From Halobacteriales archaeon QS_4_66_20 (GTDB lineage: Archaea > Halobacteriota > Halobacteria > Halobacteriales > Haloarculaceae): 64,000 nt of DNA. Of this stretch, positions 47,838 to 59,465 are shown piece after piece. Both the position numbers and the translations under genes were made by a program. Position 1 is the first letter of the stretch, and each line of letters opens with the position of its first letter. The stretch is taken from NCBI GenBank assembly GCA_003021015.1, contig PXRK01000067.1, forward strand, positions 1 to 64,000. The letters are read 5' to 3'. Below the pieces are notes generated by a model. That model made no database searches. It saw only the letters and a program-made list of their open reading frames with translations, and was not told the origin of the DNA.

Positions 47838-49226
47838 TCAGTTCGGGTGCAGTCGGACGAGCACGTCGTCGCGGTCGGCCGGGAACCCGCTGTCGGCCCG
47901 GCCGTCGCGGTTCGAGGTGACGGCGTAGAGGTCGCCGTTCGGTCCCTGCTCGACGTGGCGCACCCGCCCGAGTTCGTCCGCCAGCAGCCCGGTGCTCGCG
48001 GCGTGATACGCCTCGTCCATCCAGTCCGCGTCGTGGACGGTCCCGTGGTCGGCCGAGAGCCGCGACCCGTCGCGTGCGATCGTGACCGCGAGGAGTCGCT
48101 GGCTGATGAGGCCGCCCACGAGCAGGCGATTCTGCAGCGACGGGACCGCATCACCGGTGTAGAAGCAACTGCCGGAGGGCGCCCAGGACGGTGCGTCAGC
48201 GACGGGTCGCTGGTAGCCGGTCCCCTCGTAGCTATCGAACTCGCCGCTGTTGCGGGCCTCGGGCCAGCCGTAGTTGCCGCCGGGCCGGAGGACGTTCACC
48301 TCGTCGCCGCCGCCCGGACCGTGCTCGGTGATGACCGGCGTTCCGTCCGGCAGAAACGAAATCCCCTGTGGGTTCCGGTGGCCGTACGTGAACACCCGCG
48401 GATCGGCGTCCTCGCCGATGTCGGGGTTGGCTTCAGGGGCAGTCCCGTCCGGCTTCACGCGCAGAATCTTGCCGCCGAGCTCGCCCGGATCCGCGATTTT
48501 CTCGGGGTTCTCGATCCCCGGATCGCCGTCCCCGGTCGCGATCCAGAGGTAGTTCGCCGGCCCGAACGTGATGCGGCCGCCGTTGTGGTACGTATCCCCC
48601 GGGATCCCCCCGACGATCGGCCAGGACTCCTCTGTGGGGTCCTCGGCAGTCGCGTCGAACGCCACGACGCGATTGCTGCGCTCGCCGTCCATCTCGGTCG
48701 TGAAGTAGGCGTACACCAGCGGCACGTCCGGATAGTTCGGATGGACAGCGATCCCGAGCAGTCCACCTTCACCGCCCGTGACGTACCAGCTGTCCTCCTC
48801 GGAGCCCGGATCGAGCGCCTCCGCGTCGACGACCGAGTCGGGTGCCGCGACCGGTTCGTACTCGCCCTCGTTGACGGTCAGAATCCGGCCGGTGCGTTCG
48901 GTAACGAACAGTTCGCCGCTCGGCGCGAACGCCAGGTCCCATCCGATCGCGAGGTTCTCGGCGAGCACCTCGAACCCGTAGCTACCGGGCCCGGGTGCGG
49001 TTTCTGGCGCTTTCCAGTCTGGGTCGTAGCGGTCCCAGTCAGCCGTCTCGTGGTCGACGGTCACGTCGAACGGGAACCGGTCGGACGCGTCGTCGGTCGG
49101 ATCCGGCGTGGGCGACGGTGCGTCGTCCTCCTCGTTCAGGTTCGACAGACAGCCAGCGAGCGTCGAGAGCCCGAGCGCCCCGGTCGCCCGCAGCAGACGC
49201 CTGCGCGTGCTTCTGCCGGTCGTCAT
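47838..49226 (-). CDS. PQQ-dependent sugar dehydrogenase (soluble glucose/sorbosone type), lipoprotein
   Basis: A protein of 462 residues from the ATG at 49226. Tat lipoprotein signal: STRRRLLRATGALGLSTLAGC, with lipobox LAGC near residue 26. An acidic Thr/Pro tether follows. The six-bladed propeller carries GWDLAFAPSGELFVTERTGR, GGEGGLLGIAVHPNYP, DTYHNGGRITFGP, YGHRNPQGISFLPDGTPVITEHGPGGGDEVN and NYGWPE, the hallmarks of the GSDH family. It oxidises an extracellular aldose with PQQ, if PQQ is available. The stop is the flank of a MITE fragment. Confidence 0.92.
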   Translation of the reverse strand: MTTGRSTRRRLLRATGALGLSTLAGCLSNLNEEDDAPSPTPDPTDDASDRFPFDVTVDHETADWDRYDPDWKAPETAPGPGSYGFEVLAENLAIGWDLAFAPSGELFVTERTGRILTVNEGEYEPVAAPDSVVDAEALDPGSEEDSWYVTGGEGGLLGIAVHPNYPDVPLVYAYFTTEMDGERSNRVVAFDATAEDPTEESWPIVGGIPGDTYHNGGRITFGPANYLWIATGDGDPGIENPEKIADPGELGGKILRVKPDGTAPEANPDIGEDADPRVFTYGHRNPQGISFLPDGTPVITEHGPGGGDEVNVLRPGGNYGWPEARNSGEFDSYEGTGYQRPVADAPSWAPSGSCFYTGDAVPSLQNRLLVGGLISQRLLAVTIARDGSRLSADHGTVHDADWMDEAYHAASTGLLADELGRVRHVEQGPNGDLYAVTSNRDGRADSGFPADRDDVLVRLHPN

Positions 49227-49332
49227 GTCCGCGAGTCGTGGGCTGATAGTGAAGTGTCTTCGGATCGGACCGTCGGCGATTCTCCCCCGGAAGCCGGTTA
49301 AACCGGAGGGACTCCTGGTCACCGACTGGCCG

Positions 49333-50139
49333 TCACGCGCGGTCAGTCACCCCCGTATCAGGGGGCGAACTATCACTGCCGACGCTCTTGGCAATGTCGT
49401 CGAGGGACTTCATCTCGAAAACGAAGTGATTCGCCGGGATCGCCTCGACGAGGGGCTCGTGGTCGGGCAACGGCTCGTGCTGGTCGGCGGTACCGTCGTT
49501 GTCGTGGAGGTGACAGACCCGGATCCTCTCGCCGAACGCCGCGACGAACGCCTTCCAGTCCTCGCCGTTCACGTTCGCGTGGCCGACATCCAGCGTGACG
49601 CCGAGGTACTTCGGGGTCACGTCGACGGTCTCCAGGACCGACGCGAGGTCCGCCGGCGTCGTGGTGTAGCGCAGCCTGTCCTCGTCGATGGGCTGGTTCT
49701 CCAGACACAGCGGCACCCCCAGCACCTGGGCGTACTCGGCACACTCGGCGAGCGACAGCCGGGCGTTCGCCCGCGCTTGCTCGCGAACCCACTCTGGGTA
49801 GCGCTTTGGGACCGACCCGCCGTGGACGACAACCGCCTCGGCCCCGGCGTCGGCGGCGTCGTCGATCGTCCGCTTGACGCGCTCGACGGAGTGCTGGCGG
49901 ACCACCTCGTCGTAGCTGCCGAGGTTCCAGTCACGGAACGGTGCGTGGTAGGTGACGCTGACGCCGTGGCGGTCGGACAGTTCCCGGATCCCCTCGGGGT
50001 CGGGCGTGTCGGGGTGGCCGGCGAGGTACTCGCGTTTGAGTTCGACGTGGTCCAGCCCGAGATCGGTGACATAGCGCATGAACTCCGCGACGGTCGCCCC
50101 GAAGCGGATGTCCATCGCCGCGCCGACGCTTTCGGTCAT
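49333..50139 (-). CDS. TIM-barrel sugar isomerase/endonuclease IV-like protein of the phn operon
   Basis: A protein of 268 residues from the ATG at 50139. A xylose isomerase-like TIM barrel (AP endonuclease family 2). The metal ligands are all present: LENQPID, LDVGHANVNG, VCHLHDNDG and FVFEMKSL, besides GAEAVVVHGGSVP. The start overlaps the phnM stop by four bases (ATGA), so it is the last gene of the C-P lyase operon. Reaction unknown. No phnP is found in the window, so hydrolysis of ribose cyclic phosphate or isomerisation of a ribose phosphate is a reasonable guess. Confidence 0.85.
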   Translation of the reverse strand: MTESVGAAMDIRFGATVAEFMRYVTDLGLDHVELKREYLAGHPDTPDPEGIRELSDRHGVSVTYHAPFRDWNLGSYDEVVRQHSVERVKRTIDDAADAGAEAVVVHGGSVPKRYPEWVREQARANARLSLAECAEYAQVLGVPLCLENQPIDEDRLRYTTTPADLASVLETVDVTPKYLGVTLDVGHANVNGEDWKAFVAAFGERIRVCHLHDNDGTADQHEPLPDHEPLVEAIPANHFVFEMKSLDDIAKSVGSDSSPPDTGVTDRA

Positions 50140-51299
50140 CGCGGCCCTCCGTCGGCGCGGTACACCGGCTTCCCCGCCACGAGTGCGCGGGCGACTGTTG
50201 GCGTCGGCTCCCGGTCGATGACGAGCAAGTCCGCCCGCGCGCCGGCCTCGATGCGGCCCCGATCCTCGAACCCTACGGCGTCGGCGGGCGCGGCGCTGAC
50301 CCGTTTGACTCGCTCGGGCAAGGGTTCCCCGGTGTCGACGAACGCGCTCGCCAGCAGCGACGGTGGGTGGTAGTCGGCCACGAGGGCGTCGACGACGCCA
50401 GCGTCGATCGCGTCGGCCGTCGAGAGGTTGCCCCACTGGCTCCCGCCGCGGACGAGGTTCGGCGCGCCCATCGCCGTCGTCATGCCGACCTCGGCGGCCC
50501 GTTCGGCCGTCGCCAGCGTGATGGGGTACTCCGTGATGTCGACGCCCGCGTTGGCGAGCCGTTCGACCTCTGCCGGGTGTTCGTCGTCGTGGGAAGCTGT
50601 CACCGCGCCGGCGTCGTGGGCCGCTTCGACGACCCGGTCGACGCGCTCGCGCAGCGTCGCCATCGGGATGTCGGTGCGCTGCTCGATCATCTCCTCTGCC
50701 TCCTCGATCGTGCGGTCGGTCGCGTTCTCGTAGTACCGCTTGAACGCCTCGATGTCCTGGAACTGCCCCTTGCCGGGGATGTGACTCATCACCGAGACGA
50801 TGTCGGCGTCGCCGGTGCCGACCGCCTCAATCACCGCGTCGACGCAGCGTTGCTGGGTGACTTCACAGCGGGCGTGTAGCCGGTGATCCGCGAGCAGGTT
50901 GTCGGCGCCGGTGATGGCCGCCGTCAGCGTCGCGCCGAGTTCCGGCGAGCGATCCGCCTCTTCGTCGAGTTCGAAAGAGACGGCGTGGAACTTCGTCGTG
51001 ATACCCGCCGAGATGTTCGCGCGGTCGGCCGAAGCGAGCGCCATCGGCATCCCGATGCGCTCGCCCGAGCGAGGGTGGAGGTGATCCTCGATGTCGTCGC
51101 CGTGGAGGTCGAGCAGGCCGGGCAGCACGAAGCGGCCGTCGGCGTCGATGATGGTGTCTGCATCGGTGTCGACGCTTCCGACCGAGACGATCCGGTCGCC
51201 CTCGACGCGGACGCCACCGTCGAGGACGGCCTCGGGCGTGACGACGCGCCCGCCGACGACGGCGACGCTTTCCGCGGCGGCCTGTGCGGCCGAACTCAT
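50136..51299 (-). CDS. phnM: PhnM, RPnTP diphosphohydrolase
   Basis: A 387-residue amidohydrolase-fold enzyme. It removes pyrophosphate from alpha-D-ribose 1-methylphosphonate 5-triphosphate in C-P lyase. Visible motifs are LPGLLDLHGDDIEDHLHPRSG (about 51-71), MPMALASADRANISAGITTKFHAVSF, SVMSHIPGKGQFQ and TASHDDEHPAEVERL. The start overlaps the phnL stop by four bases; the end overlaps the TIM-barrel gene by four bases. Confidence 0.95.
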   Translation of the reverse strand: MSSAAQAAAESVAVVGGRVVTPEAVLDGGVRVEGDRIVSVGSVDTDADTIIDADGRFVLPGLLDLHGDDIEDHLHPRSGERIGMPMALASADRANISAGITTKFHAVSFELDEEADRSPELGATLTAAITGADNLLADHRLHARCEVTQQRCVDAVIEAVGTGDADIVSVMSHIPGKGQFQDIEAFKRYYENATDRTIEEAEEMIEQRTDIPMATLRERVDRVVEAAHDAGAVTASHDDEHPAEVERLANAGVDITEYPITLATAERAAEVGMTTAMGAPNLVRGGSQWGNLSTADAIDAGVVDALVADYHPPSLLASAFVDTGEPLPERVKRVSAAPADAVGFEDRGRIEAGARADLLVIDREPTPTVARALVAGKPVYRADGGPR

Positions 51300-52033
51300 C
51301 CGACAACCACCTCCCTGTCGTAGTCGTCGACCGGGACGACCCGCTGTAGGCGGCCATCTTCCAGGACGAGGACGCGGTCGGCGACGGCCTCGACCACGTC
51401 CGCGTCGTGGAAGACGCCGATGATCGTCGTCTCGGACCCGAGAGACGTCGACAGGAGATCGATAGCAGCCTGGCGCGTCTCGGGATCGAGCGCGCTGGTC
51501 GGTTCGTCCAGCAGCAGCAGCTCCGGCTGGGGCGCCAGCGCCTGCGCGAGGTTCACCCGCTGGCGCTCGCCGCCGGAGAACGTCGCCGGGTACGCCCGCC
51601 AGAGCGCCTCGGGCACCGACAGCGCCGCCAGCAGCTCGCGGGCGGTCCCGCGGGCGTCCTCGCGGTCGAGCCCCTGCTCGACCAGCGGCCGGGCCACCAC
51701 GTCGACCGCGGGCACCCGCGGAATCTCGTCGAGGAACTGCGAGGTGTAGCCGATTGCGTCCCCGCGGAGGTCGATGACCGTCCGGTCGGGACAGGATGCC
51801 AGGTCGACGTCGCCGTCAGGGCCGTGGTAGACGACCGCGCCCGAACTGGGGTCGTAGGTACGATAGAGGCATTTCAACAGCGACGACTTGCCGCTGCCGG
51901 ACTCGCCGACGACGGCGAGAAACTCGCCCTCCCGGACGGCGAACGATACGTTTTCGAGCCCGACGACCTGGGTGTCGCCGAGCACGTGCATGTCGAAGGT
52001 CTTCGAGAGACCGTCGACGGACAGGACTGTCAT
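51296..52033 (-). CDS. phnL: PhnL, C-P lyase ABC-type ATPase
   Basis: A 245-residue ATP-binding cassette. Walker [18 protein letters not shown] (about 38-54), signature FSGGERQRVNLAQAL and Walker B LLLDEPTSALDPETR. As in other C-P lyase systems it is not a transporter ATPase but works with PhnGHI to attach phosphonate to ribose. Four-base overlaps tie it to phnK and phnM. Confidence 0.94.
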   Translation of the reverse strand: MTVLSVDGLSKTFDMHVLGDTQVVGLENVSFAVREGEFLAVVGESGSGKSSLLKCLYRTYDPSSGAVVYHGPDGDVDLASCPDRTVIDLRGDAIGYTSQFLDEIPRVPAVDVVARPLVEQGLDREDARGTARELLAALSVPEALWRAYPATFSGGERQRVNLAQALAPQPELLLLDEPTSALDPETRQAAIDLLSTSLGSETTIIGVFHDADVVEAVADRVLVLEDGRLQRVVPVDDYDREVVVG

Positions 52034-52860
52034 ATGACTGAGTTGATAAGGGTCTGTGTGTACTCGTGGTGCGGGTCTTCCATGACGCGGTCGGTGAGCC
52101 CGGACTCGACGACCCGGCCGTGGCGCATCACCAGCGTCCGGTCGGCGAGCAGCCGGACGACGCTCAGGTCGTGTGAGACGACGATGGCGGCGACGCCCGC
52201 CTCGCGCTGGACGCGCCGGAACGTGTCCAGCACTCGGGCCTGGACGCTCACGTCGAGCCCGGCCGTGGGCTCGTCGAGCACGACGAGGTCGGGGTCGGTC
52301 GCCAGCGCGCGGGCGATCTGGACGCGGCGCTGCATCCCTCCGGAGTAGGTGCTCGTCGGGTCGTCCATCCGCGCGACCGGGATCTCCGTCGCCTCGAACA
52401 GCTCCCGGACGCGCTCGCGGACGTCCTCGTAGGATCGCCAGCCCGCCGAGAGCAGCTGCTCCGCGACGTTGCCGCCGCCCGTGAACTCCAGGGTCAGCCC
52501 GTCGCGGATGTGCTGATGGACCAGTGCAATCTCGCCTGTCCGGAGGTCGTGGCGCGTCTCGTAGTCTACGTCCAGCAAGTTCCCGTCGTGACCTGCGTAG
52601 CGGACCTCGCCGGCAGTCGTGGCGTCATCGTCGCGTTCGAGTGCGAGCAGTTCCGCCAGGCTGGACTTCCCGGAGCCGGACTCGCCGACCACGCCCAGCA
52701 CCTCCCCGGCCTCGACGCTGAGATCGGCGTCGGCGCAGGCAACGACGCTCCCGCAGTGGGGACACTGGTTCGTCCCCTCGCGGTCGCCGGTCGACTCGAG
52801 ACAGCGGGGACAGCCGGGGCCGTACCGCACCGCCAGGCCGCTGGCTTCCAGCAGCGTCAC
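52030..52860 (-). CDS. phnK: PhnK, C-P lyase ABC-type ATPase with Cys4 insert
   Basis: A 276-residue cassette related to DppF. It has Walker [18 protein letters not shown] (about 56-72), signature YSGGMQRRVQIARAL and Walker B LVVLDEPTAGLDV. Before Walker A is an insert with two CxxC pairs (CPRC at 17-20, CPHC at 33-36), a probable zinc ribbon. In E. coli PhnK this region is short, to my knowledge. PhnK docks on the PhnGHIJ core and remodels PhnJ. Coupled by four-base overlaps with phnJ and phnL. Confidence 0.93.
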   Translation of the reverse strand: MTLLEASGLAVRYGPGCPRCLESTGDREGTNQCPHCGSVVACADADLSVEAGEVLGVVGESGSGKSSLAELLALERDDDATTAGEVRYAGHDGNLLDVDYETRHDLRTGEIALVHQHIRDGLTLEFTGGGNVAEQLLSAGWRSYEDVRERVRELFEATEIPVARMDDPTSTYSGGMQRRVQIARALATDPDLVVLDEPTAGLDVSVQARVLDTFRRVQREAGVAAIVVSHDLSVVRLLADRTLVMRHGRVVESGLTDRVMEDPHHEYTQTLINSVI

Positions 52861-53975
52861 TGGCCGGTCCCTCCCTGGTCAGCCGCGGATCCGGTATCGT
52901 CGTCCGCGGCCGCGTCGGGCGTGCCCGGCCCCCAGTCGACTCCCTCGCGGTCGAGGTGGTGGTCCTTCGACAGCTCCGGGTGCTCGCGGCGCTTCTCGCA
53001 GAAGCTCGTATCGTTGCAGGCGTAGCGGGTCTCGAAGGCGTCCGCTCCTCGGTCGGTGGCCTCCTCGGAAACCTCCACGAGGTAGGTGTCGGTCGATCCG
53101 CAGGCGTGACAGGCCTGGTCGGGGAAGCGCTCGACCGTGAACTCCCGGTCGGTGAACGCCAGCGGCTCGACCGCAGTGTGTGGCGGGACGGCGTAGATGC
53201 GCGCCTCGCGGCCCGCAGCCAGGATCGTGAGGTGGTCCGCGTCGTCGAGTTTCGGCACGTCCCACCGCGGGATCGGCGAGGGATCCATCAGGTAGCGCCC
53301 GGCGACCATGGTCGGGTACCGGGCAGCGATGTTGATCTCGCCGTACTCGACGACATTCTCGTAGAGGTGGACCCACATCTTCCCGTAATTTGCGTGAGCG
53401 TGCCGGCGACGGTTGGCCGCATCAGAGGGATCGACGTTCCGCAGCGGGTCGGTGATCGGTACCTGCAACACCAGGCGCTGGTCGTCGGTCAGCACCTCCT
53501 CCGGGATGCGGTGGCGGCTCTGGATCAGGTCCGCCCCGGTGGTGTCGGTCGTCGTCGTCACGTCGGCGGTGTTGTCCGCCAGCCGCCGGATGTTAGCGGC
53601 GTTGACGCTCCCGTCCGCACCCTGGTCGATCACCTTGAACGTGTCCCCGGGGCCGAGCAACGACAGCGACGCCTGGATGCCGCCGGTCCCCCATCCGCGA
53701 GCCAGCGGCATCGGCCGGGAGGCGTACGGTACCTGGTGGCCCGGGATGGCAACCGCCTTCAGCATCGCACGCCGGACCTCGCGTTTGGTGTGTTCGTCGA
53801 GGTAGGCGTAGTTGTACCCTCTCAGGCCGTCGTCTTCCAGCGATGCGAGCGCAGCGTCGACGGACGCTGTCGGGACGGGTGTCCCGCCGTCTGCGGTGTC
53901 GGTGGCGGTCGGTGTCCCGCCGTCAGTCGTGCCTTCGCCGGGCGCCCCCTCGTCAGCGGCAGGCTGCTCAGTCAT
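52857..53975 (-). CDS. phnJ: PhnJ, C-P lyase radical-SAM enzyme
   Basis: A protein of 372 residues from the ATG at 53975. It carries out the C-P bond cleavage. The N-terminal 50 residues are a Thr/Gly/Asp-rich extension. Then comes GYNYAYLDEHTKREVRRAML, IPGHQVPYASRPMPLARGWG, then TGGIQASLSLLG. The Fe-S and catalytic Cys residues are Cys289, Cys292, Cys320 and Cys326 (CHAC...CNDTSFC), with the same arrangement as E. coli PhnJ. It overlaps phnI by eight bases and phnK by four. Confidence 0.95.
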   Translation of the reverse strand: MTEQPAADEGAPGEGTTDGGTPTATDTADGGTPVPTASVDAALASLEDDGLRGYNYAYLDEHTKREVRRAMLKAVAIPGHQVPYASRPMPLARGWGTGGIQASLSLLGPGDTFKVIDQGADGSVNAANIRRLADNTADVTTTTDTTGADLIQSRHRIPEEVLTDDQRLVLQVPITDPLRNVDPSDAANRRRHAHANYGKMWVHLYENVVEYGEINIAARYPTMVAGRYLMDPSPIPRWDVPKLDDADHLTILAAGREARIYAVPPHTAVEPLAFTDREFTVERFPDQACHACGSTDTYLVEVSEEATDRGADAFETRYACNDTSFCEKRREHPELSKDHHLDREGVDWGPGTPDAAADDDTGSAADQGGTGQ

Positions 53976-55098
53976 CGTCACTCGCCTCCGCGACTGCCGA
54001 GTCTGCGGGCTGGTCGTCCGCAACTCGGCCGTCGTCGCTCAGTCCCTGCCGTTCCCTGATCGCGCGGATACGGTCCAGAATCGACTGGAAGGTGACGTAG
54101 TGTGGCAGCTTGAGGTGCTCGATGAAGCCAAAGGAGTCCATCCCGTCGACCGTATCGAGGACGAACTCGGCGCGCTCGGCCGGTTCGGCCTCGCTGTCGA
54201 GCTGGATCGAGGCGTCGAGGACGGTCATCCCGATGGCCTTGCGCTCGTTGCGGCCGAACGTCAGCCCGTAGCCGAACGCGAACTGGGGGTCCGCCCGCTT
54301 CTCGTAGACGGGGACGACGGCCTCCGACTCGGTGATCTCGGTGTGAGTGACGGTCACGTCCTCACCGGTGTAGGGGTGCTCGATCCGGACCGGCAGGCGG
54401 CCGACGCGAACCTCCGCCAGCGTCGGGTGAACCTGCCCATAGCCCCGCAGCGCGGAGTAGCCAAGCGCGGTCACCGCGCCGGTCTCGCCGCGGGCCAGTT
54501 CCTGGAGCACCTCGTCGCGCTCGGGCGGGTGCGTGACCGACTCCCGAGTCGTGTCGTTGGGCTCGTCGCGCTCTGGTTCCTCGGGCTCGTGCAACAGCCC
54601 TTCCGACCGGAGCAGTTCCGTGACAGTGGTCAGCCGCTCGGGGTCGCCCTCGTCGTCGAGATCCCACTCGGCGGTGGGATCCCCTGGCTCGCCCTCCAGC
54701 AGGTCGAAATCCAGCAGTCGCTGGGTGTAGTCCTTCGTCGCGCCGAGGATCTGTCCGCCGGGGACGTCCTTGAACGCCGGCGAGACGCGCCTGCTGGCGA
54801 TCATCTCCCCCGGATCGACTGTGGCCGTCGCATCGAATCGCTCCAGCGTCGACCGATAGGCACGCAGCAAAAACGCCGCCTCGACTGTGTCGCCCTGGGC
54901 CTGCTTGACCGCCAGCGCGGCCAGCCGCGGGGCGTAGAGGCCGCCCTCGCTCATCGCCTGCCCGGTGAGTCGCCCGAGCTGTCCCTCGATCTGGTCGACG
55001 CCGAGGGCGTCAACGTTGTCGTCGACGCGCTGTTTTTCGAACAACTGCTCGGCGCGCTCGATGATCTCCTCGCCGGCAGTCACCGCGACGTACCCCAT
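53968..55098 (-). CDS. phnI: PhnI, C-P lyase subunit
   Basis: A 376-residue PhnI. It starts MGYVAVTAGEEIIERAEQLFE, then DQIEGQLGRLTGQAMSEGGLYAPRLAALAVKQAQGD (about 34-70) and ALGYSALRGYGQVHPTLAEVRVG. Nucleosidase-like role: with PhnG, H and L it attaches phosphonate to ATP ribose and releases adenine. The stop overlaps phnJ; the start abuts phnH exactly. Confidence 0.95.
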   Translation of the reverse strand: MGYVAVTAGEEIIERAEQLFEKQRVDDNVDALGVDQIEGQLGRLTGQAMSEGGLYAPRLAALAVKQAQGDTVEAAFLLRAYRSTLERFDATATVDPGEMIASRRVSPAFKDVPGGQILGATKDYTQRLLDFDLLEGEPGDPTAEWDLDDEGDPERLTTVTELLRSEGLLHEPEEPERDEPNDTTRESVTHPPERDEVLQELARGETGAVTALGYSALRGYGQVHPTLAEVRVGRLPVRIEHPYTGEDVTVTHTEITESEAVVPVYEKRADPQFAFGYGLTFGRNERKAIGMTVLDASIQLDSEAEPAERAEFVLDTVDGMDSFGFIEHLKLPHYVTFQSILDRIRAIRERQGLSDDGRVADDQPADSAVAEASDDD

Positions 55099-55644
55099 TC
55101 AGGCCACCTCCACCGTCGCCGACCGCGGGAGTGTAGCCACGCGGTCCTCGGTTGCGAACACGGCGTCGACGCCGCGTGGGTAGCCCGACCCTGCCGCCGC
55201 GAGCGCGGTCAGTTCCGCCTCGGGCAGGCCCACCGACAGCGTCGCCGTCCCGTCGACGCCGGGCCCCGAGAGTGTCAGCGTCGTCCCGTTGCCCCCGCCG
55301 GCGGCGAGGGCGTCAACGCGGTAGACGACGGTCGCCCCGTCGCTCGGTTCGGTCAGTGATCCGCGTTCACAGTCCCGCACGTCCCAGCCCGTGTGCTCGC
55401 GGGCGTGGACGACGTCTGCCACCGCGTGCGGGGCATGGTCGAGTCGGCCCTGGGCGGCCAGTGCGTCCCGCAGCGTCTCGTCGTCGGTCGAAAGCGTCAC
55501 CTCGTGGTCGAGAAGTGTCGCCACGACGGCGTGGTCCGCGGGCGCCGGTACGTCGTGGACGGTGCCGGGCCGGCTCATCGCCGCCAGGAGACTGTCGAAC
55601 GTTCGGCGGGTGTCGTGGACGGGGTCGATGCCGAGGGCTCTCAC
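55099..55644 (-). CDS. phnH: PhnH, C-P lyase subunit
   Basis: A 181-residue PhnH that starts with GTG at 55644, overlapping the phnG stop by three bases (GTGA). Family patterns: DTRRTFDSLLAAMSRPGTV (about 10-28), ATLLDHEVTLSTDD, and the C-terminal GPGVDGTATLSVGLP. It forms the core complex with PhnG, I and J. Confidence 0.93.
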   Translation of the reverse strand: MRALGIDPVHDTRRTFDSLLAAMSRPGTVHDVPAPADHAVVATLLDHEVTLSTDDETLRDALAAQGRLDHAPHAVADVVHAREHTGWDVRDCERGSLTEPSDGATVVYRVDALAAGGGNGTTLTLSGPGVDGTATLSVGLPEAELTALAAAGSGYPRGVDAVFATEDRVATLPRSATVEVA

Positions 55645-56084
55645 TCCTGGCCCTCCATCGTCTCGAACTCCACAGCGGTGTGTTTGCTCTCGGCCCAGTC
55701 CCGGCGTCGCTGCTCTCGCTGGCGGGCATCCACGTCTTCGAGGGCGGCGACGATTTCTGGCGTCTCCGCGTGACCCGCGGCGACGGCGGCGTCGACGATG
55801 GCTCCCGAGAGTGCCGCGCGTTCGGCCTTGCCCGGTAGCATCGCGAACCCGCGCGTCCCGTCGAGGTCGACCTCTGCGGGCGTCACCACCACCTCGCCGA
55901 GGTTGAACGGGCGGCGTTCGACCGGGTCGCGCACCTGCTGCAACAGCAGTTGCGGCCGCGGCTCCTGGCGGACCGACAGCGGCGGATCGTCAGCGAGTAC
56001 GTTGTTGGCAAACCGGGCGAGCGTCCCCTCCTCACAGGCGGCGATTAGCTCGAACCGGTCGGACCTGTCGTGTGGATCAACCAT
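55641..56084 (-). CDS. phnG: PhnG, C-P lyase subunit
   Basis: A protein of 147 residues from the ATG at 56084. It has PRPQLLLQQVRDPVERRPFNLGEVVVTPAEVDLDGTRGFAMLPG (about 43-86), the defining PhnG region with the conserved GEV and GxAM segments. First gene of the minus-strand C-P lyase operon. A TATA-like box lies about 33 nt upstream, so the message should be nearly leaderless. Confidence 0.93.
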   Translation of the reverse strand: MVDPHDRSDRFELIAACEEGTLARFANNVLADDPPLSVRQEPRPQLLLQQVRDPVERRPFNLGEVVVTPAEVDLDGTRGFAMLPGKAERAALSGAIVDAAVAAGHAETPEIVAALEDVDARQREQRRRDWAESKHTAVEFETMEGQE

Positions 56085-56310
56085 GCGCTCGGTCGAAACA
56101 CGCCCAAACAACCGCATAAGGATTCTCTCGGTACTCTCTGATGCTCGCTCGCTGTGAGGGTTCGTTCCCCGTCCTGTGAGATAGCGTCTGGACGAGTCTG
56201 GACTGAAAGATCGGGGATGGGTATCGACATGGGACGGTCGACACCCACGACGGACGCTTTGGACTCTATACAGGCAATCGTTATTCAACCTGTTTGCCAG
56301 TTCCGAACTG
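56085..56310. promoter_or_regulatory. Divergent phnG/phnD control region
   Basis: A 226-bp gap between the phnG and phnD starts. On the minus strand CTTATGCGG (56112-56120) is a TATA-like box for phnG. On the plus strand CTCTATACA (56264-56272) is one for phnD. In between lies an imperfect inverted repeat at 56219-56246 that could bind a phosphate-response regulator. Confidence 0.5.
56219..56246. promoter_or_regulatory. Inverted repeat, possible operator in the phn control region
   Basis: GGGTATCGAC is separated by eight bases from GTCGACACCC. The 10-base arms pair with one mismatch. It sits 18 bp upstream of the phnD TATA-like box. No regulator gene is adjacent, so the factor is unknown. 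Confidence 0.4.
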
Positions 56311-57345
56311 ATGTCCGACGACAAGGGTGACTACGCCCCAGGGGTATCGACACGACAGCACAGTCCTGACTCGGGACTGGTCGGGCGACGGAAGTTCATT
56401 GTCGGGGGGGCTGTGACGGCTGCCAGCGTGGGGCTCGCAGGCTGTGGCGGCGTGCTCGGCGGCGGCGGCGGGTCCGACGAGGTCGAAACCATCACGATGC
56501 TGCTCACACCGGGCACACCGGCCGACGCCCGGCAGCGGTACAAACCAGTGCAGAACCTGCTGAACGGCGAGGTCGACGGCGTCGACGTCAAGATGGAGGT
56601 TCCGCAGGATTACTCGGCGATCCGTCCCGCCCTGAAGAGCGAGCAGGCGGAGATCGGGATGGACGACGTAACGCTGCTCTCGAACCCGGATCTCATGGAC
56701 GTTTACGGGACGACTGTGACGGGTGGGTCGGCGTTTTACTTCTCGTTGATGCTCGTCCCGCCGGAGTCGGAGATCGACGAACGGACCGACGTCAAAGGCA
56801 AGACGTGGGCGTTTGCCGACCGGCTCTCGACCAGCGGCTCCATCTTCGCGCTGTACACGCTCCAGCAAGCCGGGCTCGACATCGGCGATGCGCCGAAGGG
56901 TGATGCCGAGGACTTCGACGGGAGCTGGACCGACCACGACCAGGCGCTGCAGCGACTCGCCAACGGGGATGCCGACGGCGCTACCACCTGGGGGGGCAAC
57001 GGGATCCCGCACCTCCCGGAGGGCACTGACGTGCCCCAGCGCGTCGAGGAGAAGAGTTCGTTCCTGGATACGATGGGCAGCGAGACGCCGCAGTTCAAGG
57101 CGATCTGGTGGTCGTTCCCGATCCCGAAACAGCCGATGTACGCCCGTAGTTCCTGGGAGTCCGAGAAGAAAAGCGAGATCGGCGAGGTGCTACTGAACTC
57201 CACGAAGGACAAGATCACGGAGTACTACCCGGAGGAGTACAACGAGGAGAAACTGCCCTTCACGACGTTGACCGACACGTCACTGGAGGACTACGAGCCG
57301 GTCAGAAAGCGCATGAACGCCGTCGGCATCGAGTTCGACGCATAA
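56311..57345 (+). CDS. phnD: PhnD-like phosphonate/phosphate-binding lipoprotein
   Basis: A 344-residue substrate-binding protein. Twin-arginine-type signal GRRKFIVGGAVTAASVGLAGC with lipobox LAGC near residue 48, so Tat-exported and lipid-anchored. Mature part: MLLTPGTPADARQRYKPVQNLL and DRLSTSGSIFALYTLQQAG, the PhnD/phosphonate-ABC family pattern. It captures phosphonate outside the cell for PhnE/PhnC. The ATPase gene follows after 15 bases. Confidence 0.93.
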   Translation: MSDDKGDYAPGVSTRQHSPDSGLVGRRKFIVGGAVTAASVGLAGCGGVLGGGGGSDEVETITMLLTPGTPADARQRYKPVQNLLNGEVDGVDVKMEVPQDYSAIRPALKSEQAEIGMDDVTLLSNPDLMDVYGTTVTGGSAFYFSLMLVPPESEIDERTDVKGKTWAFADRLSTSGSIFALYTLQQAGLDIGDAPKGDAEDFDGSWTDHDQALQRLANGDADGATTWGGNGIPHLPEGTDVPQRVEEKSSFLDTMGSETPQFKAIWWSFPIPKQPMYARSSWESEKKSEIGEVLLNSTKDKITEYYPEEYNEEKLPFTTLTDTSLEDYEPVRKRMNAVGIEFDA

Positions 57346-57360
57346 CTGCATGTATTTCCA

Positions 57361-58170
57361 ATGAGTACACTGACAATCGAGAACCTCTCGAAACAGTACG
57401 GTGACGTGACCGCCCTCGAGGACGTGTCCTTCGAGATCGAGGACGAGTTCGTCGTCCTGCTGGGTGAATCGGGCGCTGGCAAGTCGACGCTATTGCGGTG
57501 TGTCAACGGGCTGACCGAGCCGACGAGCGGCACCATCTCGCTGGGCGGCGAGCCGATCAGCGACTCCCAGGCGGACATCGGGATGATCTTCCAGCAGCAC
57601 AACCTCGTCGACGGCGTATCGGCGTATCTCAACGCGCTCACGGGATCGCTCAACCGGGTGTCGATGCTCCGGAGCCTCCTCCAGTGGCAGTCCCGGGCTG
57701 ACAAGCTCAGTGCGCTGGAGGCGCTTGAGACCGTCGGGCTGCTCGAAGAGAGCCAACAGGGGGTCTCGCAGATGTCCGGCGGCCAGCAGCAGCGCGTCGG
57801 CATCGCACGGGCACTCGTGCAGGATCCGCGGCTGCTGCTGGCGGACGAGCCAGTCGCCAGCCTGGATCCGTCCAGCGCCGAGACGGTAATGGGGTACCTC
57901 CGCAAGGCCGCCGAGGAACACGACGTGACCGCACTGGTCAGCCTCCACCAGGTCAACATCGCCGCCCACTTCGGCGACCGCTTCATCGGGCTGCGCGACG
58001 GGCAGAAGCTGTTCGACGTCGAACGCGAGGAGCTCTCGCCGGAACTGATCGACGACCTCTACGGGAGCGTCGAGACGGTCGCGCTCGCGAAGCCGGAGGA
58101 GATTGCCGGGGCGGGTCCCGGCGAGCTCGACGGCGTGCCGGGAGAGATCGAACAGGAGATCGAAGCGTGA
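57361..58170 (+). CDS. phnC: PhnC-like phosphonate ABC transporter ATPase
   Basis: A 269-residue ATPase. Walker A VLLGESGAGKSTLLRCVNGL (about 31-50), Q-loop GMIFQQHNLV, signature [15 protein letters not shown] and Walker B LLLADEPVASLDP. The motif FQQHNL is typical of PhnC. It energises uptake with PhnE and PhnD. The stop overlaps the phnE GTG start by four bases. Confidence 0.95.
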   Translation: MSTLTIENLSKQYGDVTALEDVSFEIEDEFVVLLGESGAGKSTLLRCVNGLTEPTSGTISLGGEPISDSQADIGMIFQQHNLVDGVSAYLNALTGSLNRVSMLRSLLQWQSRADKLSALEALETVGLLEESQQGVSQMSGGQQQRVGIARALVQDPRLLLADEPVASLDPSSAETVMGYLRKAAEEHDVTALVSLHQVNIAAHFGDRFIGLRDGQKLFDVEREELSPELIDDLYGSVETVALAKPEEIAGAGPGELDGVPGEIEQEIEA

Positions 58171-59198
58171 GTACGCCACCGTCGAAGGGGGACTCCCTCG
58201 CGGCGTACTTCGGCTACGCCGAGATCGGTGACTCCCCCGCCGAACGGAAGCTCCAGGAGATGAAGCGCCGCAAAACGCGGCGGCGACTCTGGACACTGGC
58301 CGGAGTGATCGCCACCGGGACGCTCTTTTATGCGAGCCTGCTCCTCATCGAGTTCAACGTCGCGGAACTGATCGGCCAGCTCGACCAGTTCTACGAGGCG
58401 CTGCTTGAGTACTTCCCGCCGACGACGTACTTCGGGATCCCGTTCGTCGACGTGGGCGCGTACGTCGACTTCATGATCGCGGAGAACCTGATCCTCACCG
58501 TCGAGAACGGGCAGATCGTCTGGGGTGCGATGTTCGTGACGATGGCCGTCGCCTTCGCCGGCACGGTGCTGGGGTTGCCCCTGGCGCTGTTTTTCGGCGT
58601 CATGTCCAGCGAGCGCGTCATCCCCTACCCGTTCAACTTCGTCTTCCGGGCGACGATGAGCCTGATCCGCGCGATCCCGGGGCTCGTGTGGTTTCTGATC
58701 CTGATCCCGCTGGCGGGCGTCACGCCGTTTACCGGTGCGCTGGCGATCATGGTCGACACGACCGGCTACCTCGGGCGGCTGTTCACCGACGAACTTGAAG
58801 AGATCGAGGACGGTCCTATCGAGGGGATCCGCTCGACCGGCGCCAGCCGCTCGCAGGTCGTCTCCTTCGGCATGCTGAGCCAGGTGTTCCGGCAGTTCAT
58901 CGCCTGGATCGCCTTCGACCTCGAACATAACGTCCGGGCAGCAATCGGGCTGGGCATCATCGGCGCCGGCGGCCTCGGGCTGGAGCTGTACATCCAGCGC
59001 CAGACGTTCCACTACACCGAGATGATGGCCTGCATCATCCTGATCTTCCTGCTTGCGGGCTCGGTCGAGCTGATCAGCCAGCGGGTCCGGTCGGCGCTGC
59101 GCGATGACGACACTGTCGAAAAGTCCGGCGTCCTCGAAGCGTTCGTCAACGCTCCCCGGAACATCCTTGCCTCCACGATGGGCCGCCGCGGGCGATGA
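58167..59198 (+). CDS. phnE: PhnE-like phosphonate ABC transporter permease
   Basis: A 343-residue permease starting with GTG at 58167 (overlap with phnC). About six membrane segments lie at roughly 40-65, 118-145, 155-180, 190-210, 245-265 and 283-305. The EAA loop is GPIEGIRSTGASRSQVVSFGML (about 213-234). One permease gene suggests a homodimer. It closes the plus-strand transporter unit phnD-phnC-phnE. Confidence 0.94.
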   Translation: MSTPPSKGDSLAAYFGYAEIGDSPAERKLQEMKRRKTRRRLWTLAGVIATGTLFYASLLLIEFNVAELIGQLDQFYEALLEYFPPTTYFGIPFVDVGAYVDFMIAENLILTVENGQIVWGAMFVTMAVAFAGTVLGLPLALFFGVMSSERVIPYPFNFVFRATMSLIRAIPGLVWFLILIPLAGVTPFTGALAIMVDTTGYLGRLFTDELEEIEDGPIEGIRSTGASRSQVVSFGMLSQVFRQFIAWIAFDLEHNVRAAIGLGIIGAGGLGLELYIQRQTFHYTEMMACIILIFLLAGSVELISQRVRSALRDDDTVEKSGVLEAFVNAPRNILASTMGRRGR

Positions 59199-59272
59199 CC
59201 TGCTACGAGGCGTACGGGCCGGACCGGACGTGAACGCTCGGGCCGGACCCGACGCTGCACGACCCCGTCTGA

Positions 59273-59380
59273 TAGTGATTGTTGTGACTCGTTACCTCGG
59301 GTATTCGCCAGACGCCAGTTTCGGGCCGTGAAACCGCCGCTACTGCGATGTAGTGCCGAACATACTCACAACAATCACTA
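59273..59380. mobile_element. MITE-like element, type A
   Basis: A 108-bp element with ends TAGTGATTGTTGTGA / TCACAACAATCACTA. It is flanked by TGA at 59270-59272 and TGA at 59381-59383. It lies between phnE and the Nudix gene, in a gap that holds no gene. Confidence 0.88.
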
Positions 59381-59465
59381 TGAATCACCGAAAGCGAATC
59401 CTTCCATAATCAATTCACAGTAACACAGCCACAACAACTACTAACACCCACAGAAAAGCGAGTAC

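Follow-up and report, generated by a model that had tools for sequence, protein, structure and literature searches.

A TIM-barrel gene lying directly behind phnM in haloarchaeal C-P lyase operons is proposed to replace phnP: its product would hydrolyze 5-phosphoribosyl 1,2-cyclic phosphate, probably to ribose 1,5-bisphosphate, a reading to which we give a probability of roughly 0.6. By the same estimate, the protein belongs to the endonuclease IV/CbiR branch of AP_endonuc_2 and acts as a phosphodiesterase that depends on metal. It falls outside the curated PhnP, CbiR and endonuclease IV families. Its function is most likely that of PhnP, carried out by a site of the endonuclease IV type, and it would be a non-orthologous substitute within an established pathway. 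The first-pass annotation of this DNA had offered either a PhnP-type step or an isomerase role; the former is kept, as it fits the operon linkage, the missing PhnP and PhnN and the phosphodiesterase-type site, and the latter is abandoned.

The absence of phnN, phnO and phnP from haloarchaeal operons was known already. A review describes the C-P lyase operons of H. walsbyi and Natronomonas moolapensis as lacking all three genes, and archaeal phosphonate use as being without published data (PMC10574752). New here is a named candidate that is invariably present and probably coupled in translation to phnM, which narrows the archaeal phosphonate gap to a single-enzyme question; the literature search found no paper naming this gene as a pathway member, or naming any PhnP replacement in haloarchaea. 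If correct, the assignment would extend the known reactions of a large superfamily in which most members carry default names. It would also link phosphonate catabolism with the ribose 1,5-bisphosphate pathway of haloarchaea (PMC9700705) and make it easier to judge which archaea of hypersaline habitats are able to liberate methane from methylphosphonate.

Layout of the phn locus

The window, i.e. the whole 64,000-nt stretch of DNA analyzed, belongs to contig C67 of a haloarchaeal genome of 2.89 Mb in 86 contigs (89% complete). The features of the locus are as follows.

49333..50139, minus strand: TIM-barrel gene, proposed 5-phosphoribosyl 1,2-cyclic phosphate phosphodiesterase (AP_endonuc_2, nine endonuclease IV ligands, phnJ co-occurrence)
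50136..50139, minus strand: ATGA, shared by the phnM stop and the TIM-barrel start (from the sequence)
50136..51299, minus strand: phnM, ribose 1-methylphosphonate 5-triphosphate diphosphatase (NF011990, 427 bits, cut-off 233)
51296..52033, minus strand: phnL (best family TIGR02324, 242 bits, slightly below the cut-off of 256)
52030..52860, minus strand: phnK (best family TIGR02323, 210 bits, below the cut-off of 303)
52857..53978, minus strand: phnJ, C-P lyase, start codon provisional (PF06007, 427 bits)
53968..55098, minus strand: phnI (PF05861, 448 bits)
55099..55644, minus strand: phnH (TIGR03292, 142 bits, cut-off 91.5)
55641..56114, minus strand: phnG, start codon provisional (TIGR03293, 109 bits, cut-off 89)
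56311..57345, plus strand: phnD, phosphonate-binding protein, divergent (PF12974, 107 bits)
57361..58170, plus strand: phnC, transporter ATPase (ABC_tran; position between phnD and phnE, kept in relatives)
58167..59198, plus strand: phnE, transporter permease (TIGR01097, 232 bits, cut-off 217)

The minus-strand order is thus phnG-H-I-J-K-L-M followed by the TIM-barrel gene, with phnD-C-E divergent on the plus strand. The TIM-barrel reading frame runs from an ATG at 50139 to a stop that ends at 49333 and encodes 268 aa. Its junction with phnM reads GCGATGACC, in which ATGA forms the four-base overlap. The earlier wording of a gene "fused translationally" to the operon needs correcting: the two genes overlap and are probably coupled in translation, with no gene fusion. 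The PhnJ translation retains the C-terminal cysteines expected for the iron-sulfur site, so there is no hint of a dead lyase.

On the far side of the TIM-barrel gene, the window carries a PQQ-type sugar dehydrogenase gene (47838-49322). On the transporter side, a NUDIX-type ORF (59199-59465) lies 3' of phnE. At this position most haloarchaeal loci instead encode a TIGR03308 hexapeptide transferase, a phosphonate-linked family (e.g. L040:16052-16717, and about 30 other phn loci).

Co-occurrence with phnJ

A survey of archaeal phn operons, suggested by the first-pass annotation, tied the gene closely to C-P lyase. The sample comprised 392 genomes spread over the class, 38 with phnJ and 354 without; for the 37 phnJ genomes other than the source, up to 20 kb around phnJ was taken. 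Protein search found an ortholog in all 38 phnJ genomes and in none of the 354 others (Fisher p about 1e-53, a figure that ignores the relatedness of the genomes). The phn-linked orthologs are about 57-80% identical to the window protein. In every operon of the survey that is complete on its contig, the gene lies directly 3' of phnM. Of 32 junctions measured, 29 keep the four-base overlap, two overlap by 1 base and one has a 49-base gap. The remaining operons are truncated at a contig end or broken; they include a genome in which phnM and the TIM-barrel gene sit together on a contig other than that of phnJ (G300) and one in which the TIM-barrel gene is split over two contigs (G347). Separately, G314 (L067/L122) has a shortened phnJ whose profile match covers residues 2-192 only; its operon looks broken, and a partial TIM-barrel gene lies about 10 kb further on.

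Other samples gave the same arrangement. When GTDB species genomes were scanned independently for patterns derived from the protein, 31 loci came back, all haloarchaeal and all directly behind phnM, including Haloquadratum walsbyi J07HQW2, Haloarcula, Natrinema and Halorhabdus. The gene is present in 10 of 10 haloarchaeal plasmid records with phnJ; a search at E 1e-5 gave no phn-linked homolog in about 205 other plasmid records that show similarity to phnJ. The TIM-barrel proteins diverge in step with the PhnM proteins (Mantel r 0.88 between the two sets of distances). One long-branched sequence, L102, comes from a phnJ-negative genome, and the tree gives it no placement. Perfect co-occurrence, kept order and kept overlap support the TIM-barrel gene as part of the C-P lyase operon.

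Absence of PhnP, PhnN and DUF1045/RcsF

The first-pass annotation had noticed that the window lacks phnP and phnN, and the same holds far more widely. Both profiles stay below cut-off throughout the window and the remaining contigs of the source genome (2.89 Mb, 89% complete), which leaves no PhnP over the TIGR03307 cut-off elsewhere in that assembly. Across the survey, PhnP (TIGR03307; best score 66 bits vs 272) and PhnN (TIGR02322) exceed their cut-offs in none of the 38 phnJ genomes, and E. coli PhnP has no match within the phn loci. In bacterial operons without phnP, a 2H-phosphodiesterase of the DUF1045/RcsF type occurs (PMC10574752); this protein and the PHP-type PhnPP are unrelated phosphoesterases that replace PhnP there (PMC10574752, PMC8774927), and both differ from the TIM-barrel protein. 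DUF1045/RcsF was rejected as the haloarchaeal stand-in, with no member over cut-off in any of the 38 genomes.

Protein family, fold and metal site

The protein belongs to AP_endonuc_2 (PF01261, the xylose isomerase-like TIM barrel), scoring 124.5 bits against a Pfam gathering cut-off of 31.1. Databases annotate it as "sugar phosphate isomerase/epimerase" and nothing further. It stays below the cut-off of every curated phosphodiesterase family, which counts against the proposed role. The best of the curated families is CbiR (NF041277; 71 bits, cut-off 105), against which one member from each of the two other haloarchaeal groups reaches 88 and 97 bits, and the second best is endonuclease IV (TIGR00587, 20 bits vs 129.65; NF002198, 41.8 bits vs 244). 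Superfamily and TIGR03307 score both place it outside PhnP.

The structure prediction that had been recommended gave a confident barrel (AlphaFold2, pLDDT 95.3). The closest solved structure, by sequence and by fold, is MJ1311 of Methanocaldococcus jannaschii (3wqo; TM 0.80, about 28% identity), in which the ligand residues are conserved over the stretch that aligns. Its title, D-tagatose 3-epimerase-like, counts against the phosphodiesterase reading. The literature search found no paper on MJ1311, and we know of no phn operon to which it belongs.

The earlier claim of a complete metal-binding set can be made more specific than the xylose isomerase/endonuclease IV superfamily: all nine endonuclease IV ligands are present (H65, H106, E147, D184, H187, H210, D219, H221 and E242). 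None of them varies among the 67 haloarchaeal sequences aligned with the protein, and they make up 9 of the 16 invariant positions. A profile alignment pairs them with the ligands of M. tuberculosis endonuclease IV, E242 lying beyond the aligned part displayed; it also settles Nfo H69, which is off by a few residues in plain MAFFT. This ligand set supports a metal site of the phosphodiesterase type. Endonuclease IV (Nfo) hydrolyzes phosphodiesters with such a site, although it is only about 15% identical to the TIM-barrel protein and acts in DNA repair rather than from a phosphonate-use operon. CbiR, likewise an AP_endonuc_2 member, catalyzes metal-dependent phosphodiester hydrolysis at a ribose hydroxyl (PMC7733943). 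Its role is in cobamide remodeling, whereas the neighbors of the TIM-barrel gene are phn genes throughout, with no cobamide-gene linkage.

Beyond the ligands, the phn-linked proteins share R12, R69, W71, N72, S75, R113, Y114, Q149, P150 and R157. At three of these positions (W71, S75 and P150), every non-phn relative checked has another residue. The shared residues are candidate specificity determinants.

Proposed reaction

In E. coli, the product of PhnJ is 5-phosphoribosyl 1,2-cyclic phosphate. The haloarchaeal reaction that we infer, in its substrate, product, regiochemistry, metal and product fate, would start from the same compound left by PhnJ. A multi-metal site, probably containing Zn and held by the nine ligands, would activate a water molecule and cleave a single ester bond in the cyclic phosphate; the arginines R12, R69, R113 and R157, invariant in the phn-linked proteins, would hold the phosphates. 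Cleavage is expected at the P-O2 bond, because endonuclease IV and CbiR both leave a secondary ribose hydroxyl free, and by this analogy the product would be ribose 1,5-bisphosphate, the same as that of PhnP. CbiR converts AdoCbl to AdoCbi-P and alpha-ribazole, freeing the secondary ribose hydroxyl (PMC7733943). In the literature searched, there is no report of a cyclic phosphodiesterase activity of this kind for the AP_endonuc_2 superfamily.

E. coli PhnP is the nearest functional parallel. It too is encoded in the phn operon 3' of phnM, with the same proposed reaction and the same place in the pathway. PhnP is a metallo-beta-lactamase, however, and the TIM-barrel protein has no sequence similarity to it.

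Fate of the product

Without PhnN, the next step for ribose 1,5-bisphosphate would be conversion to ribulose 1,5-bisphosphate wherever a ribose-1,5-bisphosphate isomerase is encoded. The canonical isomerase is over cut-off in 19 of the 38 phnJ genomes, including the source genome (TIGR00511; C65:48682-49581, 462 bits). In haloarchaea, this enzyme feeds the non-carboxylating pentose bisphosphate pathway (PMC9700705). The route through type III Rubisco put forward in the first-pass annotation was rejected: no Rubisco was found in the source genome (89% complete), and only 12 of the 38 phnJ genomes have one.

The other conceivable fate is dephosphorylation, e.g. by a HAD phosphatase encoded behind the TIM-barrel gene in about half of the genomes. 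Such a gene follows directly in 18 of 38 genomes (e.g. L048:5286-5957, and 17 further phn operons), overlaps by 8 bases the TIM-barrel ortholog LDB05_RS22080 (WP_226008012.1) in Natrinema salinisoli, and is missing from this position in the window. It belongs to HAD-IA, and its best, weak matches are phosphoglycolate phosphatases. A HAD ortholog occurs in 13 of 19 genomes without the isomerase and in 7 of 19 with it (Fisher p 0.10), a difference confounded by relatedness, and HAD as a stand-in for the missing isomerase is not established. Neither isomerase nor HAD ortholog is present in 6 of the 38 genomes; the fate of the product is therefore unaccounted for there, which counts against the PhnP replacement.

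A fuller scheme, somewhat short of even odds, is that haloarchaea end C-P lyase catabolism with an endonuclease IV-type TIM-barrel cyclic phosphodiesterase, with HAD optional, and that ribose 1,5-bisphosphate goes to the pentose bisphosphate pathway and not to PRPP.

Relatives outside phn operons and the choice of substrate

The next group of homologs (22 sequences, 42-57% identity, clade support 100/99) comes from other genomes or loci, none of them phn-linked. A clade of these relatives (L098-L120, e.g. L108; also Halostagnicola larsenii NZ_CP007059.1, locus L199) occurs in genomes without phnJ. Its genes recur next to genes for an ECF transporter and for a phosphatase of the 2-phosphosulfolactate type (PF04029), a neighborhood that looks like an uncharacterized haloarchaeal uptake or salvage cluster. 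A phosphodiesterase with a phosphomonoester product would explain a phosphatase partner in phn and non-phn settings alike.

More distant homologs (L123, L124, L125, L127, L128 and L129; about 30-35%) adjoin genes for CDP-glycerol glycerophosphotransferase, GDPD and a nucleotidyltransferase-HAD fusion, and three of these loci also adjoin ATP synthase-type genes. They may represent a haloarchaeal glycerol-phosphate polymer cluster. Homologs on Thermus thermophilus plasmids (L205 and L206) are part of an operon that also encodes a sugar-type ABC transporter, a carbohydrate kinase and an SDR protein; L205 has, in addition, a gene for a glycerophosphodiester phosphodiesterase nearby.

The varied neighbors of these related proteins suggest that the family probably has several phosphodiester substrates. 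They lend some weight to a phosphoesterase of the same pathway with another substrate or outcome: it might act on a phosphonate mono- or diester before C-P lyase or on a side product, or it might cut the cyclic phosphate at both of its ester bonds and yield ribose 5-phosphate, an outcome described for PhnPP. Ligand and operon evidence would be the same for such an enzyme, and it would agree with the relatives whose neighbors are transporter and phosphatase genes or else genes of the glycerophosphodiester and CDP-glycerol type. The gene is, however, coupled to phnM and not to transporter genes, it is present even where the HAD gene is not, and hydrolysis of the cyclic phosphate is the step for which the PhnP, PhnN and DUF1045/RcsF searches gave no other candidate. 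We regard this version as rather unlikely.

Isomerase and accessory roles

The superfamily name and the annotation would favor a sugar-phosphate isomerase or epimerase, acting for instance on ribose 1,5-bisphosphate as the first-pass annotation had considered, many of the fold matches are ketose 3-epimerases, and many epimerases rank above endonuclease IV by fold. The fold alone, however, does not part hydrolases from epimerases; the ligands do. Sugar isomerases and epimerases would be expected to have a small E/D/H/E site without extra ligands, yet H65, H106, D219 and H221 are invariant here, and all or most of these four are absent from the enzymes compared. The first two histidines are missing from D-tagatose 3-epimerases in the profile alignment; H106 and the D219/H221 pair are missing from UlaE, YcjR and Hyi. 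Moreover, the protein is not matched by TIGR00511, and a hydrolase for the cyclic phosphate would still be required. The isomerase reading is disfavored because its ligand set is wrong and the canonical isomerase coexists in half of the phnJ genomes, the source genome among them; its chance is slight.

Enzymes encoded elsewhere also bear on the PhnP replacement. Every genome searched encodes metallo-beta-lactamases that resemble PhnP weakly, and a distant PhnP may be among them, which counts against the proposal. Twenty phnJ-negative relatives, however, give equally weak matches of up to 68 bits. These proteins are generic, being equally frequent and similar with and without phnJ, and are therefore no candidates on present evidence. 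A regulatory or accessory role for the TIM-barrel protein, with one of these metallo-beta-lactamases or a PHP enzyme opening the cyclic phosphate, is improbable on the same comparison, and an invariant nine-ligand active site would be unexpected in a non-catalytic protein.

Other phosphoesterase genes at bacterial phn operons

Two bacterial plasmids carry different phosphoesterase-type genes at their phn operons. On plasmid p1 of Arthrobacter sulfonylureivorans, where no phnP is annotated nearby, an inositol monophosphatase-family gene (L207:12567-13367) follows phnM with a 4-base overlap and is possibly another PhnP substitute. On pTthSNM1-1b of Thermus thermophilus, whose phn operon has neither phnP nor phnN annotated, a TIGR00282-family metallophosphoesterase gene (L204:14074-14868) adjoins the operon on the opposite strand.
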